From Nannobrachium achirus (Eukaryota; Chordata; Actinopteri; Myctophiformes; Myctophidae), in the NCBI GenBank assembly GCA_963921795.1, contig OY997642.1, forward strand, positions 32,563,693 through 32,627,692: 64,000 nucleotides of DNA. Reading direction: 5' to 3'. Under the pieces are notes generated by a model. The model did no database searches. It saw only the letters and a list, made by a program, of their open reading frames with translations, and was not told the origin of the DNA. Positions 480 through 47,350 of this stretch are shown here, piece after piece (position 1 is the stretch's first letter; every line of letters starts with the position of its first letter). Position numbers and translations under genes: made by a program.

Positions 480-1290
480 GGGTTGCTTTTTGCGGATGAC
501 GTGGTCCTGATGGCACCATCGGTCCGAGACCTTGATCAGCTCTCACTGGATCGGTTCGCAGCCGAGTGTACAGCGGCCGGAATGAGGATCAGCATCTCTT
601 CAATCTGAGGCCATGGTTCTCAGCAGGAAACCGATGGATTGTGCAGTCCAAGTAGGGAATGAGGCTTTACTCCAGGTGAAGGAGTACCTCAGGGTCTTGT
701 TCATGAATGAGAGAAAGGGGAAGACGGAGAAGGAGATCAGCCTTAGAATCGGAGCAGCAGGCGCGGTTTTGCAGTTGCTAAATCGCACTGTTGTGAAGAA
801 AAAAGAGTTGAGCCGGAAGGCAAAGCTCTCTGTCTACCGAGCAATCTTCGTTCCTACTCTCACCTATGGTCATGAAGTGTGGCTCATTACCAAAAGTATA
901 AGGTCGCGGCTACTAGCGGACAAAATGGGTTTCCTCAGACGGGTGGCTGGTATCTTCCTTAGAGATAGGGTGAGAAGTTCAGTCACCCGAGACCTTGATC
1001 AGCTCTCACTTGGAAAGGAGTCAGCTTAGGTGGTTCGGACATCTAGTACGGATTCCCCTCAAGGCAAGCGCCTTCCTAGGAAGGTCCTTGATGGAGGAGA
1101 CCCCGTGGCAGACCAAAGACCAGATGGAAGGATTATATCTCCAAACTGGCTTGGGAACGCCTTGGTATACTCCCTGAGGGAGTGGAGGAAGTTGCTCGGG
1201 ATAAGGAAATCTGGAAGTCTCAGTTGGAACTGTTACCCTCGCGACCCGATTCCGGATAAGCGGTTGAAGATGGATGGATGGATGGGGCTA
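480..1290 (+). mobile_element. Rex3-like (RTE clade) non-LTR retrotransposon, 3' fragment, degenerate
   Basis: The broken reading frames carry a reverse transcriptase FADDVVLMA motif (about 490-520), then the segment SRKAKLSVYRAIFVPTLTY and FLRRVAGIFLRD typical of the C-terminal half of fish Rex3/RTE polyproteins. Stops and frame changes (after 607, around 1029) show it is dead. It ends in a short GATG tandem run (about 1268-1287), the hallmark 3' end of Rex3. The 5' part is missing (5' truncation). A segment near 525-545 recurs near 990-1010 (a 'gaccttgatcagctctcact' copy), so there is also internal rearrangement. Confidence 0.85.
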
Positions 1291-2063: not shown

Positions 2064-2852
2064 GGACCGTAAGGTCGCAGTTTAGTATGAAAACCTCCAC
2101 CGGCCGTCCGTCGGTCACACGTGCGGTCGACCGCACGTCACACGTGCGGTCGACGTGTGATGAGGTCACGATGAGTCATCTATGCCCAAATATAGATTTC
2201 TAGGTCAGATGGCCCATAGAGTTTGTGATGTCAAACCTAGCAACCCAATATAAACAAACCTGATGTCAGACCTGAAGTATCCTTTTATACCCATATATGG
2301 AGATACAGAGATCTCCATATATGGGCATATTAGAAAGCCCATATATGGGCATATACGGATGACATCAGGGATATCCATATATGGGCATAAAAGGGACAAG
2401 GGCTTACAGTTAAGAGATCTCCATATATGGGCATATCAGAAAGCCCATATATGTTCATATACTGATGACATCAGGAATATCCATATATGGGCATAAAAGG
2501 GACAAGGACTTACAGTTAAGAGATCTCCATATATGGGCATAAAGGGACAAGGACTGTTACAGTAGATATAGAGATGTCCATATATGGGCATAAATGAACA
2601 AGGACTGACAAACACTGAGATCTCCATATAACCTATGGGAATATAAGGGACGAGGACTGTCAGCTTGTAGACCTATTTTCTAAATATTGTTGTACATTAA
2701 AAACTTGAAATGGGTCGTTCTGCATAGTACTTGGGATTTGTTGATGTAAATGTTCACATAGAGTGTAATAATTGGTAAAACAAACTTTTGGCCTATTTGT
2801 GGAGATAAGCGACCAACGGTCGCTTATCTCCCGATTAGGGAGTCTTACTGGT
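2064..2852 (+). mobile_element. HINE/Helitron-like non-autonomous element with CArG-type minisatellite (copy 1)
   Basis: The element opens with GACCGTAAGGTCGC (2065-2078). This is nearly the inverse of GCGACCAACGGTCGC near the other end (2809-2823). That end is followed by a hairpin, CTCCC-gatta-GGGAG (2828-2842), and a short tail ending TCTTACTGGT. Between the ends lies a tandem array based on a CCATATATGGGCATA unit. The same two ends recur at 19.6, 23.4, 27.8, 31.4 and 35.7 kb. Subterminal inverted repeats, central tandem repeats and a 3' hairpin are the architecture known for Helentron-derived HINEs. The class assignment is inference, because no transposase or Rep/helicase is present here. 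Confidence 0.55.
2287..2600. repeat. tandem array with about eight perfect CArG boxes
   Basis: Units share the core CCATATATGG in the context ccatatatgggcata(aaagggacaagg). At least eight exact copies of CCATATATGG are visible, plus a mutated one (CCATATATGT). CCATATATGG fits the SRF binding consensus CC(A/T)6GG exactly and is self-complementary. Confidence 0.85.
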
Positions 2853-15500: not shown

Positions 15501-18500
15501 GTCTATCTGCTCTGTTAGTTATGAGAGGGCCCGCGAAATCTAGCAACAGGGGCATCCAAAATCTAGCAACAGGGGCAGCTATGAAAAAAATCTACTAAAG
15601 CAGGTATGAAGGGGTATGATAAAAGACAGATTTAACCCTATATGCGTTTTGGTCCGAACGACTCCTTTAAAAGGTTGGGAACCCCTTAACACAAACATAA
15701 AGTAAGCTTTCTCTCCCTTTCCCCTCTCTCTCTCTCTCTCCTGCACAGAGCAAGTGAGAGCAGCTTACCTCCTGTTACTCGGTCCCTGTCTGTACCAGAC
15801 TCGGGTTCTGTGTGGGAAATGCAGAACCCCTCTACTCAGGCCTCCTGCACACCAAACCTTCCACAAGCTGCACCAAGCAGTACGTTCCAATCACAAGAGC
15901 TCACACATTAGTTTGTTTTTTCAGTGTTTTTATTTTATTTTCCCCCAAGAAATTTCAGGTGGATTTCAGTGCAGTATTAGAGGATTAAAATATTCCCCTT
16001 GTGTATGCTATACATTAAACTCCTGATTGTCCACAGCATGGGATGGAAGCAGTGTATGGGATTTACCTATAGACTCCCTGGCCCAGGCTCCCTCCATCGA
16101 GCAAATGCAACAGCTAGAGAAGGCTAAGACTGCCAAGGTAACCTATGCTCTGCTTTGTCAATTAAGTTTGATTTAGTACACAGCCTTTTACCTGATGTCA
16201 CAGGGAGCAGACCATTCCAGTGTTATTGCATGTTAAGCCTATTGACTACAAGGCATGTGTAATCACTGTAATGTAACATTACTGATGAAAATTTTCCAAA
16301 GCATAATGTAGTCCTTTTTAACGATTATTTGTTTCCATTCATTTCAGTACAGAATGAAAATCATTCAATTGTAGTGGAAAACACAGATAAAGTATAGCCT
16401 AAAATAGTCTGGAGAAATAAATGGAAAATGTATATAGCGCTTTTATCCAAGGCGCTTTACATAGATTGTGCATTACATTCACCCATTCACGCACACATTC
16501 ATACACCGGTGGCAGAGGAAACCATGCAAGGCACCAACCTACTCACCGGGAGCAATTAGGGGTTCAGAGTCTTGCTCAAGGACTCTTCGACATTAACTCA
16601 GGGGGAGCCCGGATTCTAACTGGGAACCCTTCGGGAACCCTTTGTGCTCTAATAACGGTTTCTCTACCCCTGAGCTATGCCTCCCCGATAAAGAAAAACG
16701 TTATTTTAGAAAAATCGGAACAGCTTAATGATGAGGGGAGCAAGAGAAGCAGATTATTAGTTGGGTTTATCACCTGAAAGTTAGAATTCATTTAATAGGG
16801 AAATGGTGTATGAAAAGTATACATGACTTCAGTCATGTCAATAGGCTAAACATGCACTAACACCAATATGGTCCTTGTAAGACATCAGGCCAGAACTAAG
16901 GAAAGGTGTAGTTAAGTTTTTTGTGATAACTTTGCATCTGTGGATGTTGTAATCATATTCCATGTACTCCTTTATCAGCAGGATCTGGAGCGGCGTGAGG
17001 CGGAAATGAGGGCCAAGAGGGAGGAGGAAGAAAGGAAACGGCTAGAGGAGGCGTTACGGGCGAGGCAGGAGGAGGAACGCAAGCGCCTGGAGGAAGAGGA
17101 GCTGGCACGGCAGAAACAGGTGAAACACCAGAGTAGGACTGAAATGGTTAACCCATTTAGGCCTAGAATTATTGAATGCTTTAACCAGTGAAAAATAGCA
17201 GATATACAAGCTCACAGCGAGCTTGTAGATCTGCTATTTTTTGAAAACGTCGTGAAAATGAGTGCAAATCTTTGAATATATGTATTTTCAAAGCAAACGT
17301 TTGTAACTCAAATTTTGCTTCTGGGGGGGTCCCTGGAACTAAATATTTTGAGATGGGGGGTCTGTGGCCAAATAAATATCATTTTGGGGGTCCTTCAAAT
17401 GAAAAGGTTTGAGAACCACTGACATAGTAGTCTCTCAAGAACAGACTAACTGAGCTCCATTTAAAGGGCCACTACACCTCTGGGACAACCCTATCTTATT
17501 TTATTGTTGTTTGGGACACGATCAACACATATTTTCTGTGTTCAATCTGTTTTTTGAGATTTTTTTGTATTTCAGCATGACTAGTGATGCATTTTGCATC
17601 ATCAGTGATGCGTTTTTCATCATATGATGCATCACTAGTACATGGCAAGGCATGGATGAAAATATAGCTCATTATATGAGAGGGCACAGTCATCATTGGC
17701 ACTACAGTTAAGCTGTTAAGGATCGAGGCACTTTATGGCACAAATGTAATATTGCCAATATACAGTGATTATCAACAAAATTAATATAATCAAAATGTAT
17801 TCGTATTGTGGGGTAATTGGCTAAAAAAAGAAAAACACTGCTAGTGTTATGTTTTCCTGGAAATACTTGGGGTCTGAGTAGGCCTGTCCGAATCGACGCG
17901 TCGTTTTAAGCCCCCGGAATCGACGCCAATTGTTTGAGTCGAGCCGTCAAAAATATATAATTTTTTTTATCACACCAGTATACTGTGGTGCGGTATGAGA
18001 GCGCTGGACTGTGACTGTCATGTAATTCTTATTGAGTCCATACTTCCTACTACTAGACTTAACTAGACCAGGTCACCTGGTTGTGCCAGACCCGCAATGA
18101 AAACTAGTATGGCACTGAACTAACACATGAACACACAGGATTTTATAGTCTCAGCAACAAAGCGTAGTGAGCTTGTAGATCGGCTGTTTTCACTAGTATG
18201 GCACTGAACTAACACATGAACACACAGGATTTTATAGTCTCAGCAACAAAGCGTAGTGAGCTTGTAGATCGGCTGTTTTGACTAGTATGGCACTGAACTA
18301 ACACATGAACACACAGGATTGTATAGGCTGAGCAGCTGGAAATGTTTGTGAGCTTGTAGATGGGCTGTTTTCACTAGTATGGCTGTGGGGCAAATGTTTT
18401 GCAGCACTGAACTAACACATGAACACACAGGAATTTATAGTCTCAGCAGCTCGTCAGCCAACTCAACTCAGCTGGTCCCGTACAGGTGACGGCACTCAAG

Positions 18501-21500
18501 GCAATCAGCCGAGCAAGGGAAGGGAGGGGCAGATGAGCAGTCAGAGGCAAACACAGGCACACTGAGGAAAAGAGGGACCGACCGACAGACAGACCGACAG
18601 ACCGACAAAGCCTTATGTAGGCCGACCCCCTGGGTCTGGCAAAAATAAAATCAGTTCACGTGACTTGAAAGTTGCCTTGATCATATAACAGGGAGCTCTT
18701 ATTTTGAAGTTAACCGCTTGGAAAGGAAATGCGTCGACGAGTTGTTATTCTACTTGAGAGCTGGCCAAAGAAGCAGCAGAGCCAGCGCGATGCGCTTTCA
18801 CTTTCACTGCCGTGGGTGTGTGGTGGTTGGACTCAGGCTGAGGAATAGCGACGGGCGAACTGTTTTCTTTTTATTATCTCGCACCAGATCGGCAACATAG
18901 CTCTTTTGATACAGCAGCGGTGCACTGAGAAAATACAACTTGTGGAAATAATACACGACATGCTGTCAAAGAGATGCATTATTCTCTCCTCCGTTGTTCT
19001 ACTCTGCTCCACAATTCACAATTACGCACGGCAAATTACGCACGGCTGGACGCAATCTTATAGTCATTAATGTCCAGTGTGCTGTTTTATTGTATTACGT
19101 TGACGTGGTTTAAAAGCTTAAAGCACCACTTTTTCTTTCTTTTTTTTTCTTTTTTTTTTACATAAACGATTCGTCGACGCGTCGGATTAACCCCCGCGAC
19201 TCGAATCGACTTGATAAATCCTGCGTCGAGGACAGCCCTAGGTCTGACTAATAACTTGAAAACGTGGGTGGAATCCTATATAATGAAACCTAGATTACTA
19301 CTCCAGCAGCAGCAAGTAGGCCAACCTTTAGTAACGACCTAAAAACCGCCTTTCCTTGCTCAATTTTGTTATAAGAAATCTGCTGAAATGTGTTTTCTTC
19401 CATTGACTGATTGAGCTACTAGGTCCCCAAAATTCACATGTATTTTTTTATTTATCTCTGTGGATTTTGAAATGTTGACAGGTAACCTTAATAACAAACA
19501 TTGAGTTGCTACACAGCAGCCTTCAATCAGTGTTAACTTTTAGTAGAACAGTAAACATCATGCTGTAGCAAAGGTTCCTACCAATGTAATTTTGTGCCTT
19601 TTTATTATTTGGACCGTTAGGTCGCAAGTTACTATGAAAACTTCCACCGGCTGTCTTATCAGTCAGTCTGTCCGTCACGTCACACTTTTGACCCTAGTCT
19701 TATCTCGGCACTGTTGCCCCTATCCATGCCAAAATTTGCACACACCACTCCTTGGCTGGCAAACCACAACTTCCGCCCCTGATTTCTCACATGCCCCTCT
19801 TCTAGCTCCATGAGGTTGCCGACCTGATGGTCGCTTATCTCCCGATTAGGGAGTCTTACTGGTTATTGAAGTATCTGTTTAGGCACCAGCACCCTTTGTC
19901 TGAGTATCAGCATTGGAAAAAACACAAACGATGTTATGATAGAGAGACTAACCCTGCTGTCCTCCTGCCACTCAGGAGGAGGCATTGCGGAGTCAGCGGG
20001 AGCAAGAAGAAGCACATCGCAGGCAGAAGGAAGAGGAGGAACGATTGGCGCAAGAAGAGGCTCTCCGCAGACTGGAGGAGAGGCGGAGGGAAGAGGAGGA
20101 GCGGAAACAAAGGGAAGAGTTCCTACGTAAACAGGTAAGCATGCTACTCAAGGAGGGGGTCTCGGGCTGAAAAGGTTGAGAACCACTGGGTTATGGGATG
20201 TCATTGGTAAGGGAAACTGCAGTTTATTAGCTTCACTATATAACGAGTGCGACTCGCCACCGCCTCTCCAGGAGGAAGAGCGGAGAAAGCAGGAGCAGCT
20301 GGAAGCTCTGAGACGGCGCGAAGAGGAGAAGCGAGCGGAGGAGGAGGCCGCCGCCGCTGCCCTCTTGCTCCAGCAACAGCAGGAGGAGCAGAAAAGGAGG
20401 GAACTGGAGGCACAGAGGCAGCAGGAGCTGCAGAGACAGAGACTGCAGCAGCAGGAGGCACTCAGACGACTCCAGCAACAGCAGCAGCAGCAGCAGCTCG
20501 CCCAAATGAAGGTATAAGGTCTACATGTCTATTCTCTGCTTTGATCTAGGCTGACTTCCTGCTCCAGAGTCCTCTTTAGCAAGGTTGGGTACTTTCCTCA
20601 ACCACAAACTGTACCTGTGAGACAGCGGTTTCACTCTTCCTTATCGAGTGAGGCTGGATTCTGAATTGTTTCCGGACACATTTCAAGCTACCCTCTGTGA
20701 GAGAATGGTTGCAAATGTTTTGAATTAAGGCAGATAAGAACCAGAAAACAAAACATAAAGAGAAAACAAGTAGTAACTAGCCCTTACCCGTTCAAAGATA
20801 TGAGCTCTGAAATGATGTGCAGTGTGTGGGTTATGGGGTGTGCACTGTGCATACAGTATATGAGGGATGGAAAGTAACTTAAACTGGTGCTTACATGATA
20901 TGTAGGAGCATCAATGTAAGAAATACCGGTTTTGTTTAATGGCTACAGAGATACTGTGTACCGATCTGCATGATTTTTGGACAACATCTGTAACAGGGCC
21001 AGACACCCCAGCCCCCTTGCACTCAAATATGTAAATATATATGAATTCCAAAGTTTGTTCAGACAGTTGCATTGCATGTTGAATTAAATAAATAAATGAA
21101 TGCTGCTGAATACAGAATATGAATGTGTGAATGCATTTGATCAGATCCCTCTAGTACACTTCAATTCCTTGTTAAAGTTAAAGTGTTAAACTATATTATA
21201 TAACTATATACCTAATTTATGGGGAATCCCTCCAACCTTCATGGGCCACAAAGTTTACCATACATGGCTCTTTGTAAACAATTAATTTAAATAAGCGCAG
21301 CGCAAATCACAGGATATCTAGTTTAACATTTGTATTGCTTTATACCTTAGCTCCCGTCCTCATCTAAGTGGGGCCAGCAGTCAACACACACAGCATCCAT
21401 AAACCAGAGTCAGAACGCCCTGTCACTCGCTGAGATCCAGAAACTGGAGGAGGAGAGAGAACGACAGTCACAGGCGGAGGTAAAGATGAGGCGGGTTCTT

Positions 21501-24428
21501 TCCTTCCCTTCTCCAGCCACTAGTTGTATGATCAGCAATGTTGCATTACTTGCAAGTGTGATGAGTAATGCACACTTGACTCATTTGTGTGTGGGAACTA
21601 TGTGGTAAAACAGGGTTTCTCAAGCTTTTACATTTCAAGGTTTCCCCTTAACTCTGACAGTGTACAAATGGAACCAAATGGACCTGTTAGGATCCATTTG
21701 GTTCCATTTGTATACTGTTTAAGTTACAGACTTGTATGGGTCAATTTGGTTCCATTTGTATACTGTTAAGCTGGCTTTTTGGTGTGGAGACACCTTTAGA
21801 GTTATAGACTTGTATGAGTCAATTTAGACCCCCATAAAGGAACCCACAGAGTCCCTGGAATCCACTTTGAGAACCACTGTGGTAATGGACCAAGTGCATT
21901 TTATAGTCAGAAAGTCCATGAGTGACGTTAATGAGCTCAATTACGGCACTGCTGTAGGTGTCCAAAGGCATATTCACAGGCAGGCAGACATCTGATGCAA
22001 CTTCGATCTCTCTAGTCTTGTAGGGCTGCAACTAACGATTATTTTCATAATCGATTAATTGGTCGATTATTTAAACGATTAATCGGATTACGGCACTTAT
22101 TTCGCTATTACCTTATACATTAGATTTGAGGTTCTGTTAGACATGTTTTAACTAACAAAAAATACATTAAAGATGAATAATTCATTCAAAAATACACAAT
22201 TTATTACATTTTGCTCAGCTGCCGATTAGTTTGCTACTAAAAGACAAAAAATAAATAAATTTTTCTAGCTAGTACACATTTGTCAGGCTAAAGGGTAACG
22301 GTACTCTTTTCAAAAAGGTAATTTAAAAATAAATATTCAAGTCATATTCTTTGTTCTTGACCCTATATTTCTGCACGATATTAAGACAAATTCCAGTGAT
22401 TAGGTGCCGATTCGATTACGATTACTAAATTATTTGGCAATTAATTGAATAATCGATTAGATGACGATTAATCGTTGCAGCCCTATAGTCTAGAGGGCTT
22501 TTTCGGCGGCATCTACTGGCAAATGTTACAGGGGACGTGTAAACCATTCAGATTATGTTTGAACCTTTTGGGTACCAAATGACATGCATGTTGGGGACAA
22601 ACTCCTGCTAGTGCCCTTGCCTAAGGCACTGTCCTCAGACCTGGAGCTTTGGGACTCTGGGACGACTTTCACTGCCCTACAAACTTTAAGCTACAAAGTA
22701 AAGGAGCTAAAGGAATTATCATGGTAATTGAATGGATATTCATCTGTGCTAAAAATGTAATAGCCTCCTGACTTGCATGCTTTGTGACCTTTTTATATAA
22801 AAAGCCTCAGTATTGTTTTATTCTTCAGGACATATATCGAATAGACACTATTTCCTCTTGGTAGGCCTACAACACACTTTATTTGTGGTGCATGGTATTG
22901 TGTTTTTGTTGTTTTCGTTGTTTCGTTGTTTTCAGCATTCCCTGGTAGATGGATTTGACACATAAATTCCAGAAATCTCTGTATGTAGGTACATTGTACA
23001 TGCATAAACTCTCCCCATCGCATATCGTGAGAACATTGTTTTTGAGCTAAGCTCCAACATCGGGCTCTGTCCAGTTCCCAAACTGGCGGGAATAACATGT
23101 TCAAAAATGTCCGGCCCCTAAAGTAAACTGAAGCGTGGCCTACATCTGGCGTAGATATGGCTCAAAGTTTGTTTTACGCCCAGCGTCTCATTGGCCAAGC
23201 TTCGCAGGGCGCGCTGTGATTGGCTAGCGGGACGCTTGATGAAAATAACTCATAAATAGCACCTTCACACTAGGTGTGATTTTTCCCATTGGCACTCGCA
23301 TTCGCTCAAACTAGCCCCTCGCCCCAGTGATCCCAGTGCATGATGGAGGATAATTTCACGATAAACTCAAATCTCCACAATACGATTATTGTGTGTTTTA
23401 TACCACTAAGACTCCCTATCGGGAGATAGGCGACCGTCAGGTCCCATACACAAACTTTAGAAGGCAATGGTAGCCAATCAGGAGGGAATATGGGAAATGG
23501 GACCGATCCATGTTGATGACATGACTTACGAGATACTGTGTACCGCTTTGTGTGATTTTAGGCCAAAATCTGTAGGAGCAGTGTCCAAAAATGTGTTTTG
23601 CAAGAATCTGCCTCATGGTGGCGCTAGAAGAGGGCCATGTGAGAAATGAGGGAGGTTGTGGTTTGGCAGCCAAGGAGTGTGTGTGCAAAGTTTGGCATGG
23701 ATAGGGGCAACGGTGGCGGAGATATGAGTAGGGCAAAAGTGTGACGTGACAGCCGGTGGAGGTTTTGATAGTAACTGCGACCCTCCACGATATGATTATT
23801 GTGAGTGTTTTATATCACGATAAAGGATAATAACGATTATCTTCCCTTCCTGCAGCAGCGGCGTCAGCAACAGGAGCTATTGAAGCTGCAGCAGCAGCAG
23901 GCGCTGCAGCAGGCGCAGCAGGCCCAGAGCAAGCTGAGCGGCTGGGGCAGCGTGGCCAAGCAGCCGGCCGCCACCAACTCCCTGCTGGAGATCCAGAGGG
24001 AGGAGGCCCAGCAGATGAGGCAGAGGAAGGAGCAGCAGCAACAGCAGCAGACTCACCCCACCGTCACCCAGCAGAACAGAGCCGTCACCCAGCAGAACAG
24101 AGCAGTACGTTTTTTAGAGAACATTTGTGTCCCCAAGCAGTTGGTCGGGACCCGTTTGCGGGTCGCGGACACATTTTTATGGGTTCCTTAAGTTTTTGTT
24201 TATTTTTTTGTTTTTTTGTTTCCTACATTTAGTTTTTCATTATTATTATATTATTTTCATGAATTAATTAAAGAACAATCAAATAAATTCTATGAATTAG
24301 AAAACACATGTTTAGAAGTATTGAAAATAGCTGATCTACAAGCTCACAACGCAGTATGAAGCGACGTGTTGTGAGATTGTTGTGTAGATCTGGTATTTTT
24401 ACTAGTTTGGATCAAAAGATTTTTTTAA

Positions 24429-24464
<36 letters not shown>

Positions 24465-27400
24465 CATTTTAAAACAAACAATTCTAATAAATGCCGTCTA
24501 ATCTCTTTTGAGTCTCAACCTGAAAAGTTTTGGAACCACTGTTCAATCCATCCATCTGTCCGGAATCGGGTCGCGGGGGTAACGGTTCCAACTGAGACTT
24601 TATTTCCTTATCCCGAGCAACTTCCTCCACTCCCTCAGGGAGTATACCGAGGCTGTTGCCACGCTGTTTCTCAACCACCAGTAGTCCAATGGATTCTTGG
24701 GTCTAACTGAGAGTGTGTGAATGGAACCATTTTTTAAAGCTTTACTCTACACTGTAAAATGGTTGTTAAACTTAAGAGATGAGTCATTTTGGTTCCTTCT
24801 GTACGCTCTCGGAGTTACAGACCTGTAACGGTCCATTTGGACCCCCTGATGGCCCCCGGACCCAATATTGAGAAATCAGTGTTAACTGTTCGTCTGGCAT
24901 TGCACCGGTTATGTTTTCTGAGTAATGGAGTTATTTTTGCTTTGGGTTTATCTGCTAAAAAAGCAAGTATGCACATATTGTAAATTTGTAATGCTGTAAT
25001 CCAAGAGAGAACGTGGGGGAAAATATTCATTTGAAATCTGTGCAAAGGGGAATTTCCATTTTTATGGATTATAAAGTATCACGGTTCTAAACCAAGAGAC
25101 TGGCACTGTTAACTGAAGAGTTGGATCGGTTTCAACGTGTTGAAATGGAATGTATTTTCTGCTGCTCTATTCTGACTTCACTGTCATCCTCCTACGTGTT
25201 GGCGATGCATCCCTTCAGGTGTCACTTGATGAAATTCACATTTGAGTCGTGACTACTCTTCATGGTGTTTTCTCCATAAGGCTTTTTCTAAATAGAGCCC
25301 TGTATGAAAGGAGGAGGAGGTCTACAGTAATGAGTCTACGTCTGTCTGTAGATCCACACGTTATTCTTAACCTTCTCAGCACCACTAGGACATAGCTCTT
25401 CCTGACAGCCCAGACTATTCCTAGTTAATATTTAACTGTAAAATATGGTTGCATATACAGCGTGGGTCCTATTAAAGAGGTGATACTTATTGCCCCTAAT
25501 CTCTGGTTCACAGGTAGAGATGCTCCGATTGCAATTTTTGGGGCCGATATGATCACTAATCAACTTGAATCAGTATCTGCCGATACCGATATTCCCGATC
25601 ACAGCGTCAAATCTGTAAATTCTTCTATTTATTGTGTTACTTTAACAGCATTTATATATTTAATGATTCTTTTTACAAAACATTGACATTGTATATTAAG
25701 TATAAACATTAGGAGATTGCAGGCTGATCCTTTAGTATCCAATTCAACTTGTAGGAGTTGAAGCTGAGGTTACATTCAGTCCCACAGTTAAATATTGTGA
25801 AAATAGGTGATCTAGCTTGTAGATCGGCAAAGCCGATACCGTTCAAAGCTGATAAGCTGCTAAGACATTTGATCGATATCACTCACCGATCAATCGGCAC
25901 ATCTCTATTGACAGGTTTATAGATTGTCATGTGTCTCTCTCCTTCGCAGCCCTCTCTGTCCTCCTCTGTGTGGGGGGCCGTCACCACGAGCAGTAGCAAC
26001 TGGGGGTCAGACTCCAGCAGCATCTGGGGTGACACACACAACTCCAACATGGGCTTCTGGGACGAGGCTGTGAAGGAGGCTGCCCAGCCAGCTCCCCCAC
26101 CCAAGAAAGCCAGCACTCAGAAGAACAACAAGGGCAATGCCAACCTCAGGTACTGTTGCTCGTACCCTGCGCTGGATTTAACGCAGGTCGTCTCAACCAC
26201 AGTGCATCACGGTTCCTAGTAAAGACGTACTTGATTGCGACTGTCAGGTCGCAGTTACTATCAAAACCTCCACGGTTGTCCCTCCCTCCAGTCTGTCCGT
26301 CACGCCCCAGATTTCTCACATGCCCCTCTTCTAGCGCCACCACGAGGTTGCTTTTTGCAGACTCTTACGGTATCTCCGGTATTGTTGCTCCTATAGAGAC
26401 ACACAGGCGCCTACAAAATCACGCCCACAATTAAGACAGCGGCCCCACTTCGGGTAAGGGAGAACGGTGTACTGCAAGCCAGCCCATAGAAAGTCATTGC
26501 AATTCAACTGTGGTTAGCCTAATATTAACGAACTGAAGACTATATTGATTTAAATAAAAATATGTTTCCAAATGTATGGACTGACTCTGCCAACATATCT
26601 TAGTGTTTTCTAAATACATGATGTGTGTCACATTTAATTTGCCACTTGAATGGATTACCCATAATGTTAAGAGAGCAGAGTGGAAATGCCAGACAGAGAA
26701 CCTGTCGCTTTTCAGTGACATCACTGTCTTATTGCTATGCATTTACAAGCGCCGACTTTGAAGATCACAACTTTTTCAACTACTGAGTGAATTCTCCAGG
26801 TTAGTATTAACCAAAAAATAACTTGCAAGACTCCGTTTGAAGAAGCAAGATGCCACAATGTCCCAAATTAAATAGCCTAATTATACATGAGAGACGAGCG
26901 TATCTGGGTATGGAAAACCTCAAGGGATGCGTCCATGACGTGTGTACCATGCGACCACGGCGCCGTTGTTTTTTCTTTTTTTCCTTTTTTTGGTCCCCCG
27001 GTCGTAATCTCACCATAAATATCTGGATCTCCATTGGCATATAGTGGGGATTTTGGCCGAGTCGTCTTGCCACCCGTGCGTTTCGCGTGCAGGATCCGTG
27101 TGCATCGATGTGGGCGCATGTGATCATCTCCATATGAAGAATCCACGGAAGAATTTTCATTAGCCTAGCCGCTAGGACAACGGCTATGCTAGCGCTAACG
27201 TCCACACAGTAAGTCAATGGCTAGAAGGCTAATCTGCCCCGGAAGCGATCAAAAGCACTTCCGGTTCATGCGCAGAGAAGAATCATGCTATTGGTTAGAC
27301 CGGTGCTGAGACAGAGAAAGGGCTAGCGATCGTTTGTTTTCGATCATTATCACTTATTTCATTTTTAATGACCTAGTACGGAAAATTACGGTCGGCTAAT

Positions 27401-29604
27401 TTAAGTACAGATGATGTCCGGTATATTACGGTTTTAATATGGGCATCTCCATACGGCTGTAAAAGAGTTAAACTCATGGCACAATTTATTAGAACACAAA
27501 AAAAATCGCTACGGTCTCAGTAGTCAACCACTGAAATTGTTATTTCACAATGCCTCTCATTGGGATTGCATTGGCAGCTGCAGTACATTGTTCATCCTTA
27601 CCCAAAGTGGGGCTGCTATCACAATAGGGGGTGTGAATTTGTAGGAGCCCGTGTTTGTCTATCCATGCCAAACTTTGCACACACTCCTTGGCTGAGAAAC
27701 TACAACTTCCGCCCCTGATTTCTCACATGCCCCTCTTCTAGCGCCACCATGAGGTTGCTTTTTGCAGACAACATAAATGCGACCTGACGGTCGCTTATCT
27801 CCCGATTAGGGAGTCTTACTGGTCATATTGTGGATTAACATTTGCCTGTGTGTGTGTCGTATGTTTAGTGGACGGCCCAACAAGAAGGCAGAGGAGGAGG
27901 AGAAGCTGTTAAAGCTGTTTCAGGGAGTCAATAAGAGCCAGCAGGATGGCTTCATGCAGTGGTGTGAGCAGACTTTGCACACGCTCAACACAGCCAACAA
28001 CCTGGATGGTGAGTCTTATTAAAACAAATATGCATTTCAAAAATACACGGGTGACCCATTTCTGGAAGCAGTCGCACCAACTCACAGCCGTTCTCTGCTT
28101 CCCCTCCCCTCCTTTTCCTTCCTCCAGTTCCGACGTTTGCGTCCTTCCTGAAGGAGGTGGACTCTCCGTACGAGGTGCACGACTACGTCAGGGCCTACCT
28201 GGGAGACACACCCGAGGCCAAGGAGTTTGCCAAGCAGTTCCTGGAGCGCCGTGCCAAACAGAATGCCAACCAACAGAAAGCAGCCCCACAGCACCAACAA
28301 CAAGCCCTCAAGCAGCAGCAGGTGAGGACAGACGCACCAAATCCAGCGACAACGCCCTAAAGGAGTAGTTCGCCCCCAAAATGACTTTTTTTTTTTCTTC
28401 TATTGATTACTCACGCCACGGAGATGTGAGTTCAATAATATTTTTGGGTTTTTGTGACATTCCTAATACCCCCATTGATTCCGGATGGAGACCCAAATGC
28501 ATGGCGTTAGTAATCAATAGAAAAAGTCATTTTGGGGGTGAACTACTCCTTTAAGCTATGTTCCCACCTAGTTGCTTGAATCTACAAGCTCACAACGTGT
28601 CGCGATGTGACACGTGAGCTTGTAGATCGGCTATTTCCACCATCAATGTTCTTTCTCGAGTATAAAGTTGTCAAACATGTCAGTCATTTCTTTGTATACT
28701 TAGGTTATGTGTCATATCTGCCATGTGCAACTTCAAAGCCTACAAGCCAAACAGAAATGTGATTTTCAATGTAATTTGAGGGGGGTTCTTTCAGTTTCAG
28801 TGCAAGTCTCTTTCTCTCTCCATCCCCCAGGACTCTGTATGGGGTGGGACAGTTTCTTCGTCTCTCTACCAGTCAAACCACACCAGCCTCCAGCAGCCAC
28901 GCTTCGAGACGGTCACCTCAGGGAAGAAGAAGAAAAAGCAGAAGATGGTCCGTGCAGACCCCAGTCTACTAGGTGAGTGCACACACCAATAAGGATGGGA
29001 CGATACGAAAATGTCATATCACGATTATTGTGACAAAAGAAATTGTGATTTATGATATTATCGCGATAATCAAAATCAATTATCCTGGGGTGGAACATTT
29101 GATAGAGTGCAAAAAAGACTATCAAGTACATATATTATAAGTACCTTTTACCAATTAGCCAGTAGCTATGCCCCTCCCCTAAAAGCTTTTGTCCAATGCT
29201 AGCTTGGCAACCGACAAAAGGTTTTTGGGAGGGGCATAGCTACTGGCTAATTACAGAGGGTTTAAGTACTACCGGGTATGCAGCTCGGCAAATAAAAGGT
29301 GTATTGATCCCAGTGCATGACGGAGGACGATATCACGATAAATGAAATCTCCACGATATGATTATCGTGAGTGTTTTTCATCACGGTGAACGATAATATC
29401 GATTATCGTCCTATCCCTACATACAAACCACTGTATGTTGTTAGTGGTGGGAAGATATCTGTGACATGTTGTGGAGATCAAACGACAACTTGACATTTTT
29501 AGTCCTGCGTTTTAAAGATTCTTATCTTTCACACAGGTTTTTCTGTGAATGCCGCATCCGAGAGATTGAATATGGGAGAGATTGAGACTCTGGAGGACTT
29601 TTAA
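3170..29604 (+). CDS. gigyf2: GRB10-interacting GYF protein 2 (4EHP-GIGYF2 translational repressor)
   Basis: This is a scaffold that joins the cap-binding protein 4EHP to mRNA repressors and decay factors in the cytoplasm. The span includes a noncoding exon 1 (to 3251). Coding exons: 5805-5842, 6060-6222, 6376-6471, 6559-6667, 8063-8171, 8298-8338, 8449-8481, 8590-8849, 9304-9516, 10647-10797, 12020-12271, 12690-12862, 13107-13263, 13361-13527, 14225-14319, 14799-14927, 15749-15879, 16037-16137, 16982-17119, 19976-20134, 20272-20511, 21351-21479, 23856-24104, 25950-26149, 27869-28008, 28128-28321, 28831-28972, 29537-29604. All junctions are GT-AG and in phase, giving about 1358 aa (human about 1300). 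Order of domains: [14 protein letters not shown]-terminus, YRYGREEML 4EHP motif (residues 51-59), [18 protein letters not shown] (about 328-350), GYF domain (about 585-645), a long E/R/Q coiled coil (about 805-1110), and a conserved C-terminus ending [15 protein letters not shown]1 fits less well: the Q-rich helix and the [17 protein letters not shown] ending are GIGYF2-like. One exon has a probable extra G (see 9320-9324). Confidence 0.95.
3873..4263 (+). mobile_element. dispersed fish repeat 'CAGTGGTGGAAAAAGTACTC' (MITE-like)
   Basis: It starts GCAGTGGTGGAAAAAGTACT and ends ACTTTACACCACAG, with internal 'agtaaaagtacaaaagtatt' text. Terminal CAGTGGTG / CACCACTG-like inverted ends mark it as a short non-autonomous element. 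Related copies, some inverted, lie at about 58.33-58.70, 59.15-59.57, 60.17-60.50 and 62.77-63.23 kb. This copy also contains a half of the GAGCTTGTAGA palindromic repeat (4021-4034). Confidence 0.65.
4555..4705 (+). repeat. three imperfect tandem units of about 50-55 bp
   Basis: The phrase TTAGGTTAGTGGTTGA followed by AGTAATGCTGTACAGTGTAA occurs three times with drift (starting about 4564, 4615 and 4669). It lies in the first intron of gigyf2. No function is apparent. Confidence 0.7.
4706..5790. other. gigyf2 intron 1, no further feature recognised
   Basis: This is moderately AT-rich intronic sequence between the noncoding first exon and the ATG exon. Open frames here lack recognisable protein features. 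The 3' end has a T-rich tract leading to the acceptor TTTTTAG at 5790. Confidence 0.5.
5791..5842 (+). other. gigyf2: gigyf2 first coding exon with start codon
   Basis: The exon follows a clear polypyrimidine tract and TTTTTAG acceptor. It carries 14 nt of 5' UTR and the ATG at 5805 (context AAGAATGG, purine at -3 and G at +4), and ends TGG split by a strong GTAAGTGA donor. It encodes [13 protein letters not shown] with the next exon, the invariant GIGYF N-terminus. That homology is why this ATG was chosen. Confidence 0.93.
6060..6222 (+). other. gigyf2: gigyf2 exon with 4EHP-binding motif
   Basis: It encodes [18 protein letters not shown], then [19 protein letters not shown] and [13 protein letters not shown]. 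The YxYxxxxL-phi motif (YRYGREEML) is the known binding site for the cap-binding protein 4EHP (eIF4E2) in GIGYF1/2. The Gly-rich insert [10 protein letters not shown] looks longer than in mammalian GIGYF2. The donor is a weak GTTGGT; a GTAACG 4 nt later would break the frame, so AAG|gttggt is preferred. Confidence 0.9.
6780..7110. repeat. intronic repeat with 22-G homopolymer and flanking inverted sequence
   Basis: A run of 22 G lies at 6923-6944. It is flanked by related inverted text (TTCAAATCGGTTCGG at about 6880 and CCAAACCGATTTAAAC at about 6993), suggesting a small foldback element carrying the G run. Assembly through such a run is often unreliable. Confidence 0.55.
8590..8849 (+). other. 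gigyf2: gigyf2 exon with an optional 60-nt internal intron
   Basis: The frame stays open from the acceptor TTCCACAG (8589) through [20 protein letters not shown] and [10 protein letters not shown] to two overlapping donors (GTGTGC at 8848, GTGCAC at 8850). Inside, AATG|GTAATG (8605) and CTCTGCAG (8664) would remove exactly 60 nt and keep the frame, leaving a 15-nt microexon. Both forms are coding-competent; transcripts are needed to choose. Confidence 0.75.
9304..9516 (+). other. gigyf2: gigyf2 exon with SLPEWCLED motif and apparent +1 G
   Basis: Downstream of 9325 it encodes [31 protein letters not shown] and the [17 protein letters not shown]...SGAFLSLK block conserved in GIGYF proteins (reported in the mammalian proteins as a DDX6-contacting region; recalled, not checked). 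The first 20 nt read DAPRSAG in the family-expected frame, but a run of five G (9320-9324) puts them one base out of register with the rest. Confidence 0.85.
11021..11215 (+). mobile_element. tRNA-derived SINE
   Basis: The head resembles a tRNA. An A-box-like TGGCCTAGCGTTTAAGGCG lies at 11031, and a B-box-like GGGTTTGATTCCCG at about 11103. They are followed by the fish SINE body (CTCTCTCCCTGTTTCCTGTC) and an AATAAAGG/AAGACTCC tail ending in A-rich sequence. It lies in a gigyf2 intron, in the sense orientation. Confidence 0.8.
11270..11946. repeat. repeat-rich intronic block with poly-A/poly-T foldback
   Basis: Two TATCCCGAAC(T)...TTCGGGATAGGCACT units (11862-11888, 11905-11932) follow A runs and T runs between 11779 and 11861 that can fold back. 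The block is bounded by 'aactcatttagtgcc' (11273) and 'ggcactcaatgagtt' (11926), which are inverted. This suggests one non-autonomous element with TIR GGCACTNAATGAGTT. Confidence 0.6.
11296..11310 (+). promoter_or_regulatory. CTCF-like motif
   Basis: CCACTAGAGGGCGCC agrees at all positions with the CTCF core consensus CCASYAGRKGGCRSC. It sits inside the repeat block in a gigyf2 intron. Occupancy cannot be judged from sequence. Confidence 0.5.
13107..13527 (+). other. gigyf2: gigyf2 exons encoding the GYF domain
   Basis: Two exons (13107-13263 and 13361-13527) join in phase 1 to give [19 protein letters not shown] and [18 protein letters not shown]. The GP[YF]xxxx[MV]xxWxxx[GN]YF signature of GYF domains is complete. 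This domain binds proline-rich PPGphi ligands, as known for GIGYF partners such as the CCR4-NOT/TNRC6/ZNF598 axis. The intron between is only 97 nt. Confidence 0.93.
13620..14200. other. gigyf2 intron with a repeat shared with 17.46-17.65 kb
   Basis: Text 'tcttattttattgttgtttg' with 'atgatgcattttgcatcat' recurs in the intron at 17.49-17.62 kb. TGATGCAxxTGCATCA palindromes are included. This is a dispersed non-coding repeat; nothing else is seen. Confidence 0.5.
15081..15615. mobile_element. foldback element with arms of about 220-240 bp
   Basis: Left arm 15081-15303 (TACCCTTCATACCTGCTTTA ... ACTTGTCAAACGG) is the inverse of 15378-15615 (TTTGACAAGTAAGGGTGCC ... CTAAAGCAGGTATGAAGGGG). Small indels and an extra 'atctagcaacaggggc' repeat are in the right arm. 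The loop is about 74 nt and GA-rich. It lies in a gigyf2 intron just upstream of an exon. Confidence 0.85.
16422..16690 (-). mobile_element. tRNA-derived SINE, antisense copy
   Basis: Read on minus it starts GGCATAGCTCAGGGGTAGAG, an A-box-like tRNA head. The body contains CTTGAGCAAGAC and GCCTTGCATGGTTTCC text, and the end is GCGCCTTGGATAAAAGCGC followed by 'tatataca'. A related copy is at about 47.7-47.9 kb. It lies in a gigyf2 intron. Confidence 0.7.
17879..19240 (+). mobile_element. hAT-type non-autonomous DNA transposon, 1.36 kb, with 8-bp TSD
   Basis: The ends are TAGGCCTGTCC (17879) and GGACAGCCCTA (to 19240), inverse of each other apart from one base. They are flanked by GGTCTGAG (17871-17878) and GGTCTGAC (19241-19248), an 8-bp target duplication with one mismatch. 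Subterminal GACGCGTCG motifs occur at both ends. No transposase frame survives. It contains a tandem array (18104-18440). Confidence 0.85.
18104..18440 (+). repeat. 89-bp tandem repeat, about 3.5 copies, inside the hAT element
   Basis: CTAGTATGGCACTGAACTAA recurs at 18104, 18193 and 18282 (period 89), and a fourth, altered copy starts at 18374. Each full unit ends with GTGAGCTTGTAGATCGGCTG, which is one half of the dispersed palindromic repeat described elsewhere in the window. Confidence 0.85.
19612..19863 (+). mobile_element. HINE-like element, copy 2 (no CArG array)
   Basis: It begins GACCGTTAGGTCGC and runs through 'actatgaaaacttccaccgg', then 'tatccatgccaaaatttgca' and 'tttctcacatgcccctcttc'. 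It closes with GACCTGATGGTCGC, CTCCCGATTAGGGAG and TCTTACTGGT. It has the same ends as the element at 2064-2852 but a different, shorter interior. It lies in a gigyf2 intron 112 bp before an exon. Confidence 0.65.
21611..21879 (+). mobile_element. hAT-type MITE (CAGTGGTTCTCAAAC family), copy A
   Basis: The ends are CAGGGTTTCTCAAGC and CTTTGAGAACCACTG. The flanks TGGTAAAA (21603) and TGGTAATG (21880) form an imperfect 8-bp duplication. The interior shares 'ctgacagtgtacaaatgg' and 'gagtccctggaatccacttt' with copies at 30003 and 61014. Within it a segment around GTTCCATTTGTATACTGTT is duplicated. Confidence 0.75.
22021..22485 (+). mobile_element. hAT-type MITE (TAGGGCTGCAACTAACGATT family)
   Basis: Terminal inverted repeats TAGGGCTGCAACTAACGATT and AATCGTTGCAGCCCTA are intact. 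The flanking duplication is TAGTCTTG (22013-22020) / TAGTCTAG (22486-22493). Many ATAATCGATTA-type internal repeats are typical of this widespread fish hAT family. It is non-coding and lies in a gigyf2 intron. Confidence 0.9.
22500..23300. other. gigyf2 intron, nothing recognised
   Basis: No gene or clear repeat boundary was seen between the hAT MITE and the nested element beginning near 23300. Open frames here are short and lack family features. Confidence 0.4.
23300..23845 (-). mobile_element. HINE-like element (copy 3, minus) nested in an ACGATAT-type MITE
   Basis: A minus-strand copy of the HINE-like family spans about 23402-23782 (ACCACTAAGACTCCCTATCGGGAG ... CGGTGGAGGTTTTGATAG). It is embedded in text matching the MITE at 28990-29419. 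The MITE segment 'cacgatatgattattgtgag' appears on both sides (about 23376 and 23787), so roughly 30 bp of host sequence is duplicated around the insertion. The gigyf2 exon at 23856 starts just downstream. Confidence 0.6.
24062..24104 (+). repeat. gigyf2: 21-nt tandem duplication inside a gigyf2 exon
   Basis: The end of exon 23856-24104 encodes two back-to-back copies of AVTQQNR-type sequence (GTCACCCAGCAGAACAGAGC repeated). It adds seven residues without shifting frame. The exon also codes Q-rich and [20 protein letters not shown] segments typical of GIGYF2. Confidence 0.8.
24541..24665 (-). mobile_element. Rex3-like LINE 3' tail, antisense
   Basis: On minus it reads the same 3' end as the Rex3 copy at 480-1290: 'ctccctgagggagtggagga', 'ataaggaaataaagtctcag', then CGACCCGATTCCGGA and a short GATG run (24541-24551). 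Only the last 120 bp or so is present. It appears inserted within a decayed hAT MITE whose ends flank it (GGAACCACTG at 24531-24540). Confidence 0.75.
24666..25500. other. gigyf2 intron with a partial hAT MITE
   Basis: About 24720-24892 matches the right half of the CAGTGGTTCTCAAAC MITE ('gagttacagacctgtaacgg', ending ATTGAGAAATCAGTG). The rest shows no gene or recognised element. Confidence 0.5.
25515..25907 (+). mobile_element. hAT-type MITE (TAGAGATGCTCCGAT family)
   Basis: The ends TAGAGATG(CTCCGATT) and (AATCGGCA)CATCTCTA are inverted. The flanks TTCACAGG (25507-25514) and TTGACAGG (25908-25915) give an 8-bp duplication with one mismatch. Internally it carries a compact copy of the GATC..AGCTTGTAGATC repeat (25808-25830). 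Confidence 0.88.
26239..26365 (+). mobile_element. HINE-like element, partial copy 4
   Basis: GACTGTCAGGTCGCAGTTAC, then 'tatcaaaacctccacggttg' and TTTCTCACATGCCCCTCTTC, TAGCGCCACCACGAGGTTGC: the 5' part and middle of the family seen at 19612-19863. It lacks the 3' hairpin end. Confidence 0.6.
27645..27823 (+). mobile_element. HINE-like element, 3' part, copy 5
   Basis: It contains 'tatccatgccaaactttgca', TTTCTCACATGCCCCTCTTC, then GCGACCTGACGGTCGC, CTCCCGATTAGGGAG and TCTTACTGGT. The 5' end is missing. It lies 46 bp upstream of a gigyf2 exon. Confidence 0.65.
28358..28554 (+). mobile_element. MITE with long TIRs and TTAA/CTAA ends
   Basis: The left end TAAAGGAGTAGTTCGCCCCC with AAAATGACTTTTTTTTTTTC is inverted at the right end as GTCATTTTGGGGGTGAACTA, CTCCTTTAA. 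TIRs are about 45 bp (ATTGATTACT / AGTAATCAAT inside). Ends at TTAA suggest a TTAA-targeting family. Intronic, 36 bp after a gigyf2 donor. Confidence 0.8.
28990..29419 (+). mobile_element. MITE (TARGGATGGGACGATA family) with internal foldback
   Basis: The ends TAAGGATGGGACGATA and TATCGTCCTATCCCTA are near-inverse. The candidate 8-bp duplication is CACACCAA / CATACAAA (two mismatches). Inside, 29153-29252 is a second inverted repeat (AATTAGCCAGTAGCTATGCC / GGCATAGCTACTGGCTAATT). Confidence 0.75.
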
Positions 29605-31376: not shown

Positions 31377-31670
31377 GGACCAGTTTATTGCCGTCACACC
31401 GTATCCGTTCGTCCGTCCGCCCGGGTAACACCTGACACTGGTTCCCCTGACACATCACTGTGACATTACAGGTGACAACACAGATACTCAGAGCAGTGAT
31501 CTCCATATATGGGCATAAAAAGGGATTCTGTTAGGGATCTCCATATATGGGCATAAAAGGGATCTTATCCCAGGTGATGCCCTGTTAAGAAAACCACACT
31601 AACAGAATCCATATATGGCCAAGCCAGATAAAGGGCGTGGTCACTTTTTTACCTTAGGCGTCTTACTGGT
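31377..31670 (+). mobile_element. HINE-like element with CArG motifs, copy 6
   Basis: It starts GGACCAGTTTATTGCCGTCA with 'ttcgtccgtccgcccgg' and ends CCTTAGGCGTCTTACTGGT. It contains three CCATATATGG sites (about 31504, 31542 and 31612) in the same GGGATTCTGTTAGGGATCTC context as the large array at 34.9 kb, but in opposite orientation. Confidence 0.6.
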
Positions 31671-32119: not shown

Positions 32120-41351
<9,232 letters not shown>

Positions 41352-45639: not shown

Positions 45640-47350
45640 TTATTTTTAATTGATTTATTGATTGATTGAAGACTTTATTAGAATTTTGCATAGGAAAAGG
45701 TACAGTTTCATGACGGTACAGTTCACTGAGTACAAGGTCAACTAAAAGGAGATCCTAGAAAGAACTTGGCTTATTTGCACAGGAAACCATTAAAGTATCT
45801 CATATAACATTGCATGACAGACGGATAGAACACAGTACTATGCAGTAGATAGTCAGAAAAAGAAAACAGTGTAGGAAAAATATATACAGTAGATATTTAC
45901 AATAGAAGGGTCAGGGGAAGGGTAAGGCTGGGCTAGGTTTGTTTTTACCAGTTATGAGTGGCTGCCGCCTTTAGGTGGTTTTTCAGGGCGATTTTAAAGG
46001 ATGTTAGGGATTTACACTCCTTTAAGGCCGGTAAGGCGTTCCACATTTTGGTGGTATAGCAGAAGAACGAGTTTGACCCTTTGTTTGAATTGATTCTGGG
46101 TTGAACGTGATCTGAGGCGCTGCCTCTGGTGTTGTAATTATGGACATCCTTAACGTTTTCAAAGTATTTTGTCAGGTACATGGGTATCTTAGTGGTGTAC
46201 TGTATCTTGTACACCAGGCCCATTGCAAGATGCTGTACTCTGTCATCTACTCTGAGCCACCCCACTCTTAACTGGTGAGTAGCGGTGAGGTGAGTCTGAT
46301 AGGAAAAGTTAAGCAGGACCCTAATTAGTTTGTTTTGGGCTGTTTGGAGCTTAGTTTTTAGGGCTGCTGGGTACCAGTAGCCCTATACCATCACCTATAC
46401 CATTCACCCTCTTTGATTGTGAAGTTATCGACCTTTTTGAGGTTATGATTTGATCCAAAGAGTTATGATAATTTGTTGTCGTTAAGCCATGTGCAGATCT
46501 TACTAAGTTCAGAGTCTAGGAGAGCCGAGTCATCCGCAAACAGGAACAGGTTGCAGTCGCAGGCAAATGCCATGTCGTTTACATATATTAGGAACAACAG
46601 AGTACCCAGTATGCTACCTTGAGGGACACCACAGCTTACTGGGAGGGGGGGGGACGTGGTTCACCTCCACGGACGTGGTTCACCTCCACGAACCACCTGT
46701 TCCCTCCCCACCAGGTAAGATTGCATCCAACTCACTGCTGCGCTGTCAAGACCGATAGCTTTTAGTTTCTCAATCAGAATAGAGTGATTCACGGTGTCAA
46801 ATGCCTTCTGGAGGTCCATCATGCTGCGCGTTTGATTTGGTCTGTCAAATAGAGAAGGCATGTGTCAGTGGAATGGGATTTTCTGAATCCAGATTGGAAC
46901 TCATAAAATCAGATTTTTCTCATCGAGATATCTTGCAATCTGTTCGTAGACTATTTTTTCCATGACTTTGGATATGGAACTAAGATGGGGCGGTAGTTAC
47001 CAGAGGGTCTAGTTTGCTACCTTTTTGTGCAGGGGCGTTACTTTTGCTAGTTTGAAGTCCTGGGGGACATGACCCTGTTCGATAGATAGGTTAATTATGT
47101 GGGTAATGATTGGAGCAATGGAGACGGCTGAGTCTCTGAGAAATCTGGCGGGAATTTTATCAAGGCTGTGGCCTTGTGTTGAGGTAGGGCGCTCAATTTT
47201 TTAAACACTTCATCAGTAGTCACCGTGGCGAGTTTAAAACTATCTTTGCTAACCCCTAGTTTTTTGTAGTATTTATTAACAAACTCTTTACCATACTGCC
47301 CAGATGGGGGACCAGTGAACGGGCTGTGGTGACAACTCTGCTCTGACATG
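45640..47350 (-). mobile_element. L2-like non-LTR retrotransposon, 3' part, degenerate
   Basis: On minus the pieces read, in order, the N-terminal RT side (GKEFVNKYYKKLG..., DEVFKKLSALPQ), RT motif DLQKAFDTVNHSILIEKLKA with SWMQSYLVGREQVV, and the C-terminal HNYNTRGSASDHVQPR, FCYTTKMWNALPALK. The 3' end is AATAAAGTCTTCAATCAATC (about 45650). Many frame breaks show it is dead. It separates gpr55 from itm2c. Confidence 0.85.

Follow-up and report, generated by a model that had tools for sequence, protein, structure and literature searches.

One palindromic 10-bp CArG box, CCATATATGG, occurs 211,913 times in the genome studied here (1,658,514,493 bases in 564 contigs), roughly one copy per 8 kb. 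The same sequence reversed, GGTATATACC, likewise a palindrome and of equal composition, occurs 748 times. This scale is the real surprise: the ~212,000 identical boxes lie in repeats whose ends and flanks differ. Among these repeats are transposable elements with the features of HINEs, the non-autonomous Helentrons, in some of which the box forms tandem arrays. We consider it reasonably probable, judging from the sequences, that this tandem CArG box is kept as a host SRF site aiding transposition. The original prediction that the family had spread clustered SRF-type sites holds at the level of sequence, with the qualification that only some members carry such sites and that other repeats carry them as well. 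Mobile DNA has in this way built a large reservoir of candidate SRF sites in this genome.

The family was characterized in the window, that is, the whole 64-kb stretch of DNA analysed, where copies A to G were delimited. A scan with the 14-base end motif GACCGTMAGGTCGC, allowing up to two mismatches, gave seven matches against 0.17 expected; the claim of at least seven copies sharing common ends is confirmed, with corrections at the ends of D, E, F and G. Copy A is a CArG-bearing HINE with both ends present on the plus strand, reading ATT/GGGACCGTAAGGTCGC...CTCCCGATTAGGGAGTCTTACTGG/T (slashes mark element boundaries). The copy is real, but the span first proposed for it, 2064-2852, is displaced, since the ACTGG/T boundary gives 2063-2851. 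All parts of A lie on the plus strand: a 5' palindromic subterminal inverted repeat (subTIR) at 2063-2078, a CArG array at 2279-2651 with ten recognisable units and eight exact CCATATATGG, a 3' subTIR at 2809-2823 (GCGACCAACGGTCGC) and a 3' hairpin sequence, CTCCC-GATTA-GGGAG, at 2828-2842, 9 nt before the 3' terminus. Copy B (19610-19862, plus strand, 253 bp) has both ends and is without CArG boxes. Copy C (23403-23782, minus strand) also lacks them; its 3' end is present and its 5' end is clipped inside the subTIR. Copy D (26237-26362, plus strand) consists of a 5' part only, and copy E (27659-27822, plus strand) of a 3' part with subTIR, hairpin and ACTGG/T. Searches in the window for a 3' end belonging to D (5' end at 26237) and for a 5' end belonging to E (3' end at 27822) found neither; the two may be one interrupted element of 1.59 kb, with D as its left half. 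Copy F (31377-31669, plus strand, 5' boundary approximate) is a decayed CArG-bearing HINE that has lost the standard 5' end, holds three exact CCATATATGG and ends in TCTTACTGG/T. Copy G (34817-35687, minus strand) has an intact 5' end and 11 exact CCATATATGG, most of them set 37 bp apart, in an array at 34886-35368 (minus strand).

Two body types can be told apart among these copies, A/F/G and B/C/D/E, and A, F and G have in common an array whose orientation within the element is identical in all three. The window holds 22 exact CCATATATGG against 0.07 expected. These make up 22 of the 27 CC(A/T)6GG boxes in the 64 kb, and all of them lie inside A, F and G. Of the predicted site counts (8, 3 and 10), those of A and F were correct, and that of G rises to 11. 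The CTCCC..GGGAG hairpin, proposed as a shared feature, was found in A, B, C and E. A TCTTACTGGT terminus, also proposed as common, closes A, B, E and F without a mismatch and C with one, but is not found at the end of G. Taken alone and allowing one mismatch, TCTTACTGGT is as frequent in the window as chance would have it (7 found, 4.94 expected), so that the informative feature is its position adjoining the hairpin.

On the minus strand G halts at an internal weak hairpin and CCTGG/T, and when it is set against two related genome copies, L016 and L027, this 3' end lies inside the element. At 34817-34840 (minus strand) G follows L016 and L027 up to ...GAAGAAATGCTTCTTTCCTGG and departs from them exactly after CTGG, with T as the next base; a weak 5-bp hairpin (z -1.5) precedes the departure point. 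The end of G looks like an early rolling-circle stop at a cryptic internal terminator, a chance deletion being the alternative. G contains in addition a second array, of 20-bp units GGTTGCTAGGGTAAACAGTT, at 35382-35540. A single strict X-box-like site of RFX type, GTTGCCATAGCAAC, stands beside the CArG array at 35526 and matches the RFX consensus.

Comparison of window and genome copies yielded a typical element of the form TT/GCGACC-GTCA-GGTCGC-AG ... GCGACC-TGAC-GGTCGC-TTAT-CTCCC-GATTA-GGGAG-TCTTACTGG/T. Its 5' subTIR, GCGACCGTCAGGTCGC, is 16 bp long, has palindromic arms and lies directly 3' of the host TT, and an inverted GCGACCGTCAGGTCGC is found near the 3' end in E and in several genome copies. 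At the very terminus the 5' repeat is itself palindromic; in E, 28 bp separate the 3' repeat from the 3' end. CTCCC-GATTA-GGGAG precedes the terminal G by 9 nt in A, B, E and other genome copies. The scan for 5' ends returned 21 rows, two of which were 3' repeats read backwards and were dropped; TT stands directly before 18 of the 19 true 5' ends, compared with a background TT frequency of 8.5%. At the opposite side T is the next base after all 27 3' ends of the stricter scan, which does not take in F and G. A looser scan, whose 30 rows include clear chance matches, had T next in 21. When folding was compared with that of shuffled sequences, the 3' subTIR stem of A (z -6.7) and the two 3' hairpins of E (z -3.8) stood out, C was weak (z -0.7), and in A the subTIR stem outcompeted the 3' hairpin. 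Inspection by eye of the sequence next to A and B revealed no target-site duplication (TSD). Imperfect direct repeats of about 30 bp enclose copy C, at 23373-23402 and about 23783-23814, a feature that Helentrons would not be expected to show. C could have arisen by "one-ended" insertion accompanied by a long target duplication, some Helitron2 copies being reported with TSDs of 7-19 bp (PMC3627910), or it could have entered between two tandem units already in place. Central tandem repeats recur every 106 and 51 bp in A and every 37 bp in G. By length, no coding capacity is apparent: A measures 789 bp with open stretches of 76-80 codons in its array, B measures 253 bp, and the longest open stretches overlapping the 5' part of A (130 and 117 codons) enter from the flank. 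Inspection by eye (first 60 residues, 30 longest open stretches, sampled genome loci) recognised no RepHel.

This organization agrees with published definitions. As described in the pertinent parts of Thomas et al. 2014 (PMC4067079), HINEs carry palindromic subTIRs of 12-15 bp, set about 2-4 nt inside the 5' terminus, and a short palindrome that lies 8-35 bp short of the 3' terminus; they insert at TT or T-rich sites without modifying the target, in some cases contain tandem repeats, and lack coding capacity. The hallmarks that had been ascribed to HINEs at the outset, namely subterminal repeats, central tandem repeats and a 3' hairpin, match that account. The present elements resemble HINEs and Helentrons (PMC4067079) in their palindromic subTIRs, placed 5' and upstream of the 3' palindrome, in their TT target and in having central repeats in some members, and differ in that the central repeats of some subfamilies carry perfect CArG boxes. 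Helitron2 has asymmetric inverted repeats with two hairpins (Bao & Jurka 2013, PMC3627910). As in the Helitron2 elements described there, the terminal 5' inverted repeat is able to form a hairpin, and the 3' copy precedes the 3' hairpin at a distance of 20-30 bp from the end (28 bp in E); the likeness is to the description rather than to letter-by-letter ends, and differs in that no RepHel was seen here. With palindromic subTIRs, a 3' hairpin and a strong TT target all agreeing with the definitions, the predicted HINE/Helentron assignment, and with it classification of the A-type family as HINE/Helitron2, a non-autonomous Helentron, appears well supported. Canonical Helitron1 inserts between A and T. 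It was rejected as a candidate: the 5'-TC start is absent, the elements begin with GCGACC after TT, and the CTGG 3' end alone fits CTRR.

The family is found far beyond this locus. An exact search of the genome with GACCGTMAGGTCGC returned 13,651 matches (6,779 + 6,872), whereas a reversed-pattern control returned 10 (7 + 3). Occurrence outside the window had been set as a test of the family, and these counts confirm it; together with the counts of the box, they rule out a purely local cluster. Five exact GACCGTAAGGTCGC matches lie on one strand at C1:3129963-3138696, spaced about 2.1-2.3 kb apart, possibly a head-to-tail rolling-circle concatemer.

The distribution of the box over elements was examined in two samples. 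The first comprises 19 regions (L009-L027) around the first 100 CCATATATGG places, covering about the first 643 kb of C1, and holds 104 boxes; one further region, L028, was added to it. Two of these loci are G-type elements: L016 (1,323 bp, 16 boxes) has both ends, and L027 (1,269 bp, 15 boxes) has lost the 3' subTIR and kept hairpin and terminus. Aligned with window copy G, L016 shows 11 differences over 867 bases and L027 shows 7 over 868, so that the G subfamily was probably active fairly recently. L016 shares with A an 85-bp stretch at 100% identity on the 3' side, while its 5' repeats read GGGAGC against GGTCGC in A. A HINE-like element at L023, recognised by eye, has another subTIR, the same TCTTACTGG/T terminus as the main family, and four boxes; copy F of the window appears by eye to be like this sister family. 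Other boxes belong to a satellite with a 31-bp unit, to a TTTTTGAAAAAGCCTGTTCATTCTGGACTG repeat or to further repeats. The satellite, ACATGTAGAACATCCTGTAGT-CCATATATGG, occupies L019 8303-8653 with 12 exact boxes; scanning L019 for ends of the present HINE family found none. Scored by flanks, 50 of the 104 boxes are HINE-unit-like (at least 9/12) and 35 are unlike (6/12 or less). Linking 29 clusters by Blast, the window included and the boxes masked, gave one group of 16, in which part of the chaining is weak, and nine smaller groups.

The second sample consists of 17 non-overlapping loci chosen by the exact end motif in the first 10.8 Mb of C1 (L007 and L029 were dropped as overlapping L006 and L008). 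It favours short elements, ten loci having been taken for two close end motifs and several of the other seven being one-ended, and it misses the GGGAGC ends of G-type copies. Boxes occur in three of these loci (L006, L033 and L034) and lie inside the element only in L033; in this biased sample, then, one in 17 has boxes within the element, which indicates that the array is not needed for the success of the family. Altogether, the CArG array is modular: some HINE subfamilies and other repeats carry it, and it is no fixed component of the family. A search of viral_contigs with the array pattern gave 0 matches.

Conservation of the box relative to its surroundings was measured in the array of A. 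One of its ten recognisable units is inverted, one has a single core mismatch, and one has a 3-bp insertion in the core. Units were aligned in a hand-set register to the G-array consensus, leaving the 3-bp insertion out; the test concerns one element, whose units were recognised partly by their core. Over the ten units mismatches number 1/100 in the core and 43/170 in the flanks (column permutation, p 0.0003). With the 106-bp duplication collapsed the figures become 0/70 and 27/119 (Fisher, p 1e-6; column permutation, p 0.0008), and in the six units with five or fewer flank mismatches they are 0/60 and 19/102 (permutation, p 0.005). The contrast is much weaker, 24/230 against 56/391, in a flank-only scan allowing up to seven flank mismatches, a cruder procedure than the hand register in that several of its 23 matches are out of register. 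Among sites whose flanks are at most one mismatch from the consensus, in loci mostly chosen for boxes, 63 of 75 have an intact core. CpG is absent from core and flank consensus alike, so the difference between them is not explained by CpG decay.

The symmetry of the box was followed outward in 138 boxes, which represent 81 distinct contexts. Complementarity of the pair immediately beyond the box edge is seen in 25% of contexts, the chance level; for pairs three and four the share rises to 60% and 57%. In 61 of the 81 contexts the palindrome is confined to the 10-bp box. That strict symmetry mostly halts at the box edge, while the core is nearly invariant in A, favours a protein site over a hairpin. 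The original prediction had allowed that the self-complementary core might act structurally instead. Self-complementarity is indeed strong, whole A folding far better than shuffled sequences (z -8.05, 20 shuffles), but the structural alternative is weakened by the end of strict symmetry at the box edge in most contexts, although outer positions 3 and 4 are partly symmetric.

The main rival of the SRF reading retains the HINE assignment and takes the arrays to be passive: the TATA-core palindrome would be a point of slippage or template switching, every new unit junction would keep the core while the flanks vary, and SRF would play no role in vivo. We hold this to be possible, if less probable than not. 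Central tandem repeats with no known function have been described in HINEs and DINE-1 in the parts of PMC4067079 that deal with them, and the folding of A, the presence of the box in the 31-bp satellite and other repeats, and its occurrence inside the element at one of 17 end-motif loci (a biased sample) all accord with passivity. Against it, the reversed palindrome of equal composition is found 748 times against 211,913 (one control palindrome), and complementarity of the first outer pair stays at the chance level. The arrays might instead act structurally, inter-unit hairpins on the displaced single strand helping or stopping rolling-circle replication, which we regard as very unlikely. The folding of A, its one inverted unit, which creates a head-to-head pair, and the complementarity of outer pairs three and four speak for such hairpins; the confinement of the palindrome to 10 bp in most contexts speaks against them, as do elements having both ends and no array (L003, L006, L031, L032 and B).

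Least probable, and barely credible to us, is that the copies form a MITE-like or other TIR/TSD family rather than a rolling-circle one. Inverted repeats are present at both ends, and imperfect direct repeats flank C. The inverted repeats are, however, subterminal and asymmetric, TT precedes nearly all 5' ends, the 3' hairpin adjoins ACTGG/T, and by eye neither A nor B shows an adjoining TSD of fixed length. Asymmetric subterminal repeats and the TT target thus disfavour a TIR/MITE family.

Returning to the reading in which the box serves as an SRF site, CCATATATGG ranks among the best sites for SRF that selection experiments have yielded. It is very likely that SRF binds this sequence in vitro; whether it would have a function on the arrays in vivo is, on present evidence, a coin-toss. 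The identification of CC(A/T)6GG as the SRF CArG box, on which the prediction relied, agrees with the published consensus, CC[A/T]6GG, as given in the part of PMC4524680 concerned with it. According to the same source, SRF binds 6,759 sites in mouse myocytes, and CArG boxes under a broad definition number 3.1 million in that genome (PMC4524680). Given the latter figure, the oddity here lies in the number of one exact box and not in the number of potential sites.

The sequence of events that we propose is as follows. HINEs would be copied by rolling-circle transposition into TT sites through a RepHel enzyme presumably encoded elsewhere. Some of their subfamilies carry a central tandem array whose unit includes the palindromic 10-bp box CCATATATGG; these arrays grew by tandem amplification, as the 37-bp and 106-bp periods show, and the array module recurs in L023, a HINE-like element whose ends differ, and by eye in F. 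The box would be kept because a host factor binds it, SRF being the most likely binder. As the most likely consequence, SRF-bound arrays could act as an enhancer or open-chromatin module that aids transposition, and in spreading they would seed potential SRF-responsive sites or decoys across the genome. A bolder version supposes that an optimal SRF site was reached by convergence in several rolling-circle families of a single vertebrate lineage, or passed between them, that it multiplied to more than 200,000 copies because SRF binding opens the elements in a cell type in which they transpose, and that the host lives with an SRF sink and partly rewired SRF/MRTF or SRF/TCF control. We think this rather doubtful. 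If true, the sink would be far larger than the host's own targets, to judge by the 6,759 sites of mouse myocytes in the cited portion of PMC4524680.

Spread of factor-binding sites by rolling-circle elements has precedents. In Arabidopsis, RC/Helitrons distribute CArG-like PHERES1 sites, as seen by ChIP-seq in the results available from PMC6914339. The likeness lies in rolling-circle elements spreading MADS-box (CArG-like) sites; the differences are that the host there is a plant, the binder PHERES1 and the evidence ChIP-seq, whereas here the host is a vertebrate, the elements are of Helitron2/HINE type with tandem arrays, and the evidence is sequence (PMC6914339). In Caenorhabditis, 953 Helitrons contain heat-shock elements (HSEs) for HSF-1, and eight copies of one type have more than 100 such elements each, according to the pertinent sections of PMC6927752. 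Many sites of one factor per Helitron are common to both systems; that case involves HSF-1 and another host, and both binding and an effect on expression were demonstrated (PMC6927752). Among the top-ranked matches in the open-licence PubMed Central literature we found no vertebrate case linking Helitrons and CArG boxes. The present elements may be a vertebrate case of factor-site spread by rolling-circle transposons, on a much larger scale, with part of the ~212,000 boxes residing in such elements. They open two testable questions: does a transposon gain from carrying an optimal binding site, and how does a transcription factor cope with a vast excess of perfect sites?

The two genes named in the original prediction are both in the window, as indicated by Pfam matches to the GYF domain at 13.3 kb (gigyf2) and to the SNORC family at 39.5-40.2 kb (snorc). 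Other gene pieces in the window correspond to a rhodopsin-type receptor and to Hairy-Orange/HLH. Two open reading frames, 586-1026 (plus strand) and 45948-46382 (minus strand), look by eye like remnants of LINE reverse transcriptase; Pfam gave no match for either. An 89-bp tandem repeat with 3.1 copies at 18103-18383 is unrelated to the HINEs. In the window and L009-L027 taken together, TGACATCA/TGATGTCA occur 56 times in the 24 kb lying within 300 bp of CArG boxes, compared with 46 times in 211 kb elsewhere, and are thus 10.6-fold denser, in counts drawn from related, non-independent copies. The intact CRE TGACGTCA is not enriched near CArG boxes in the same regions (1 vs 9); TGACATCA and TGATGTCA are the products expected from its CpG decay.
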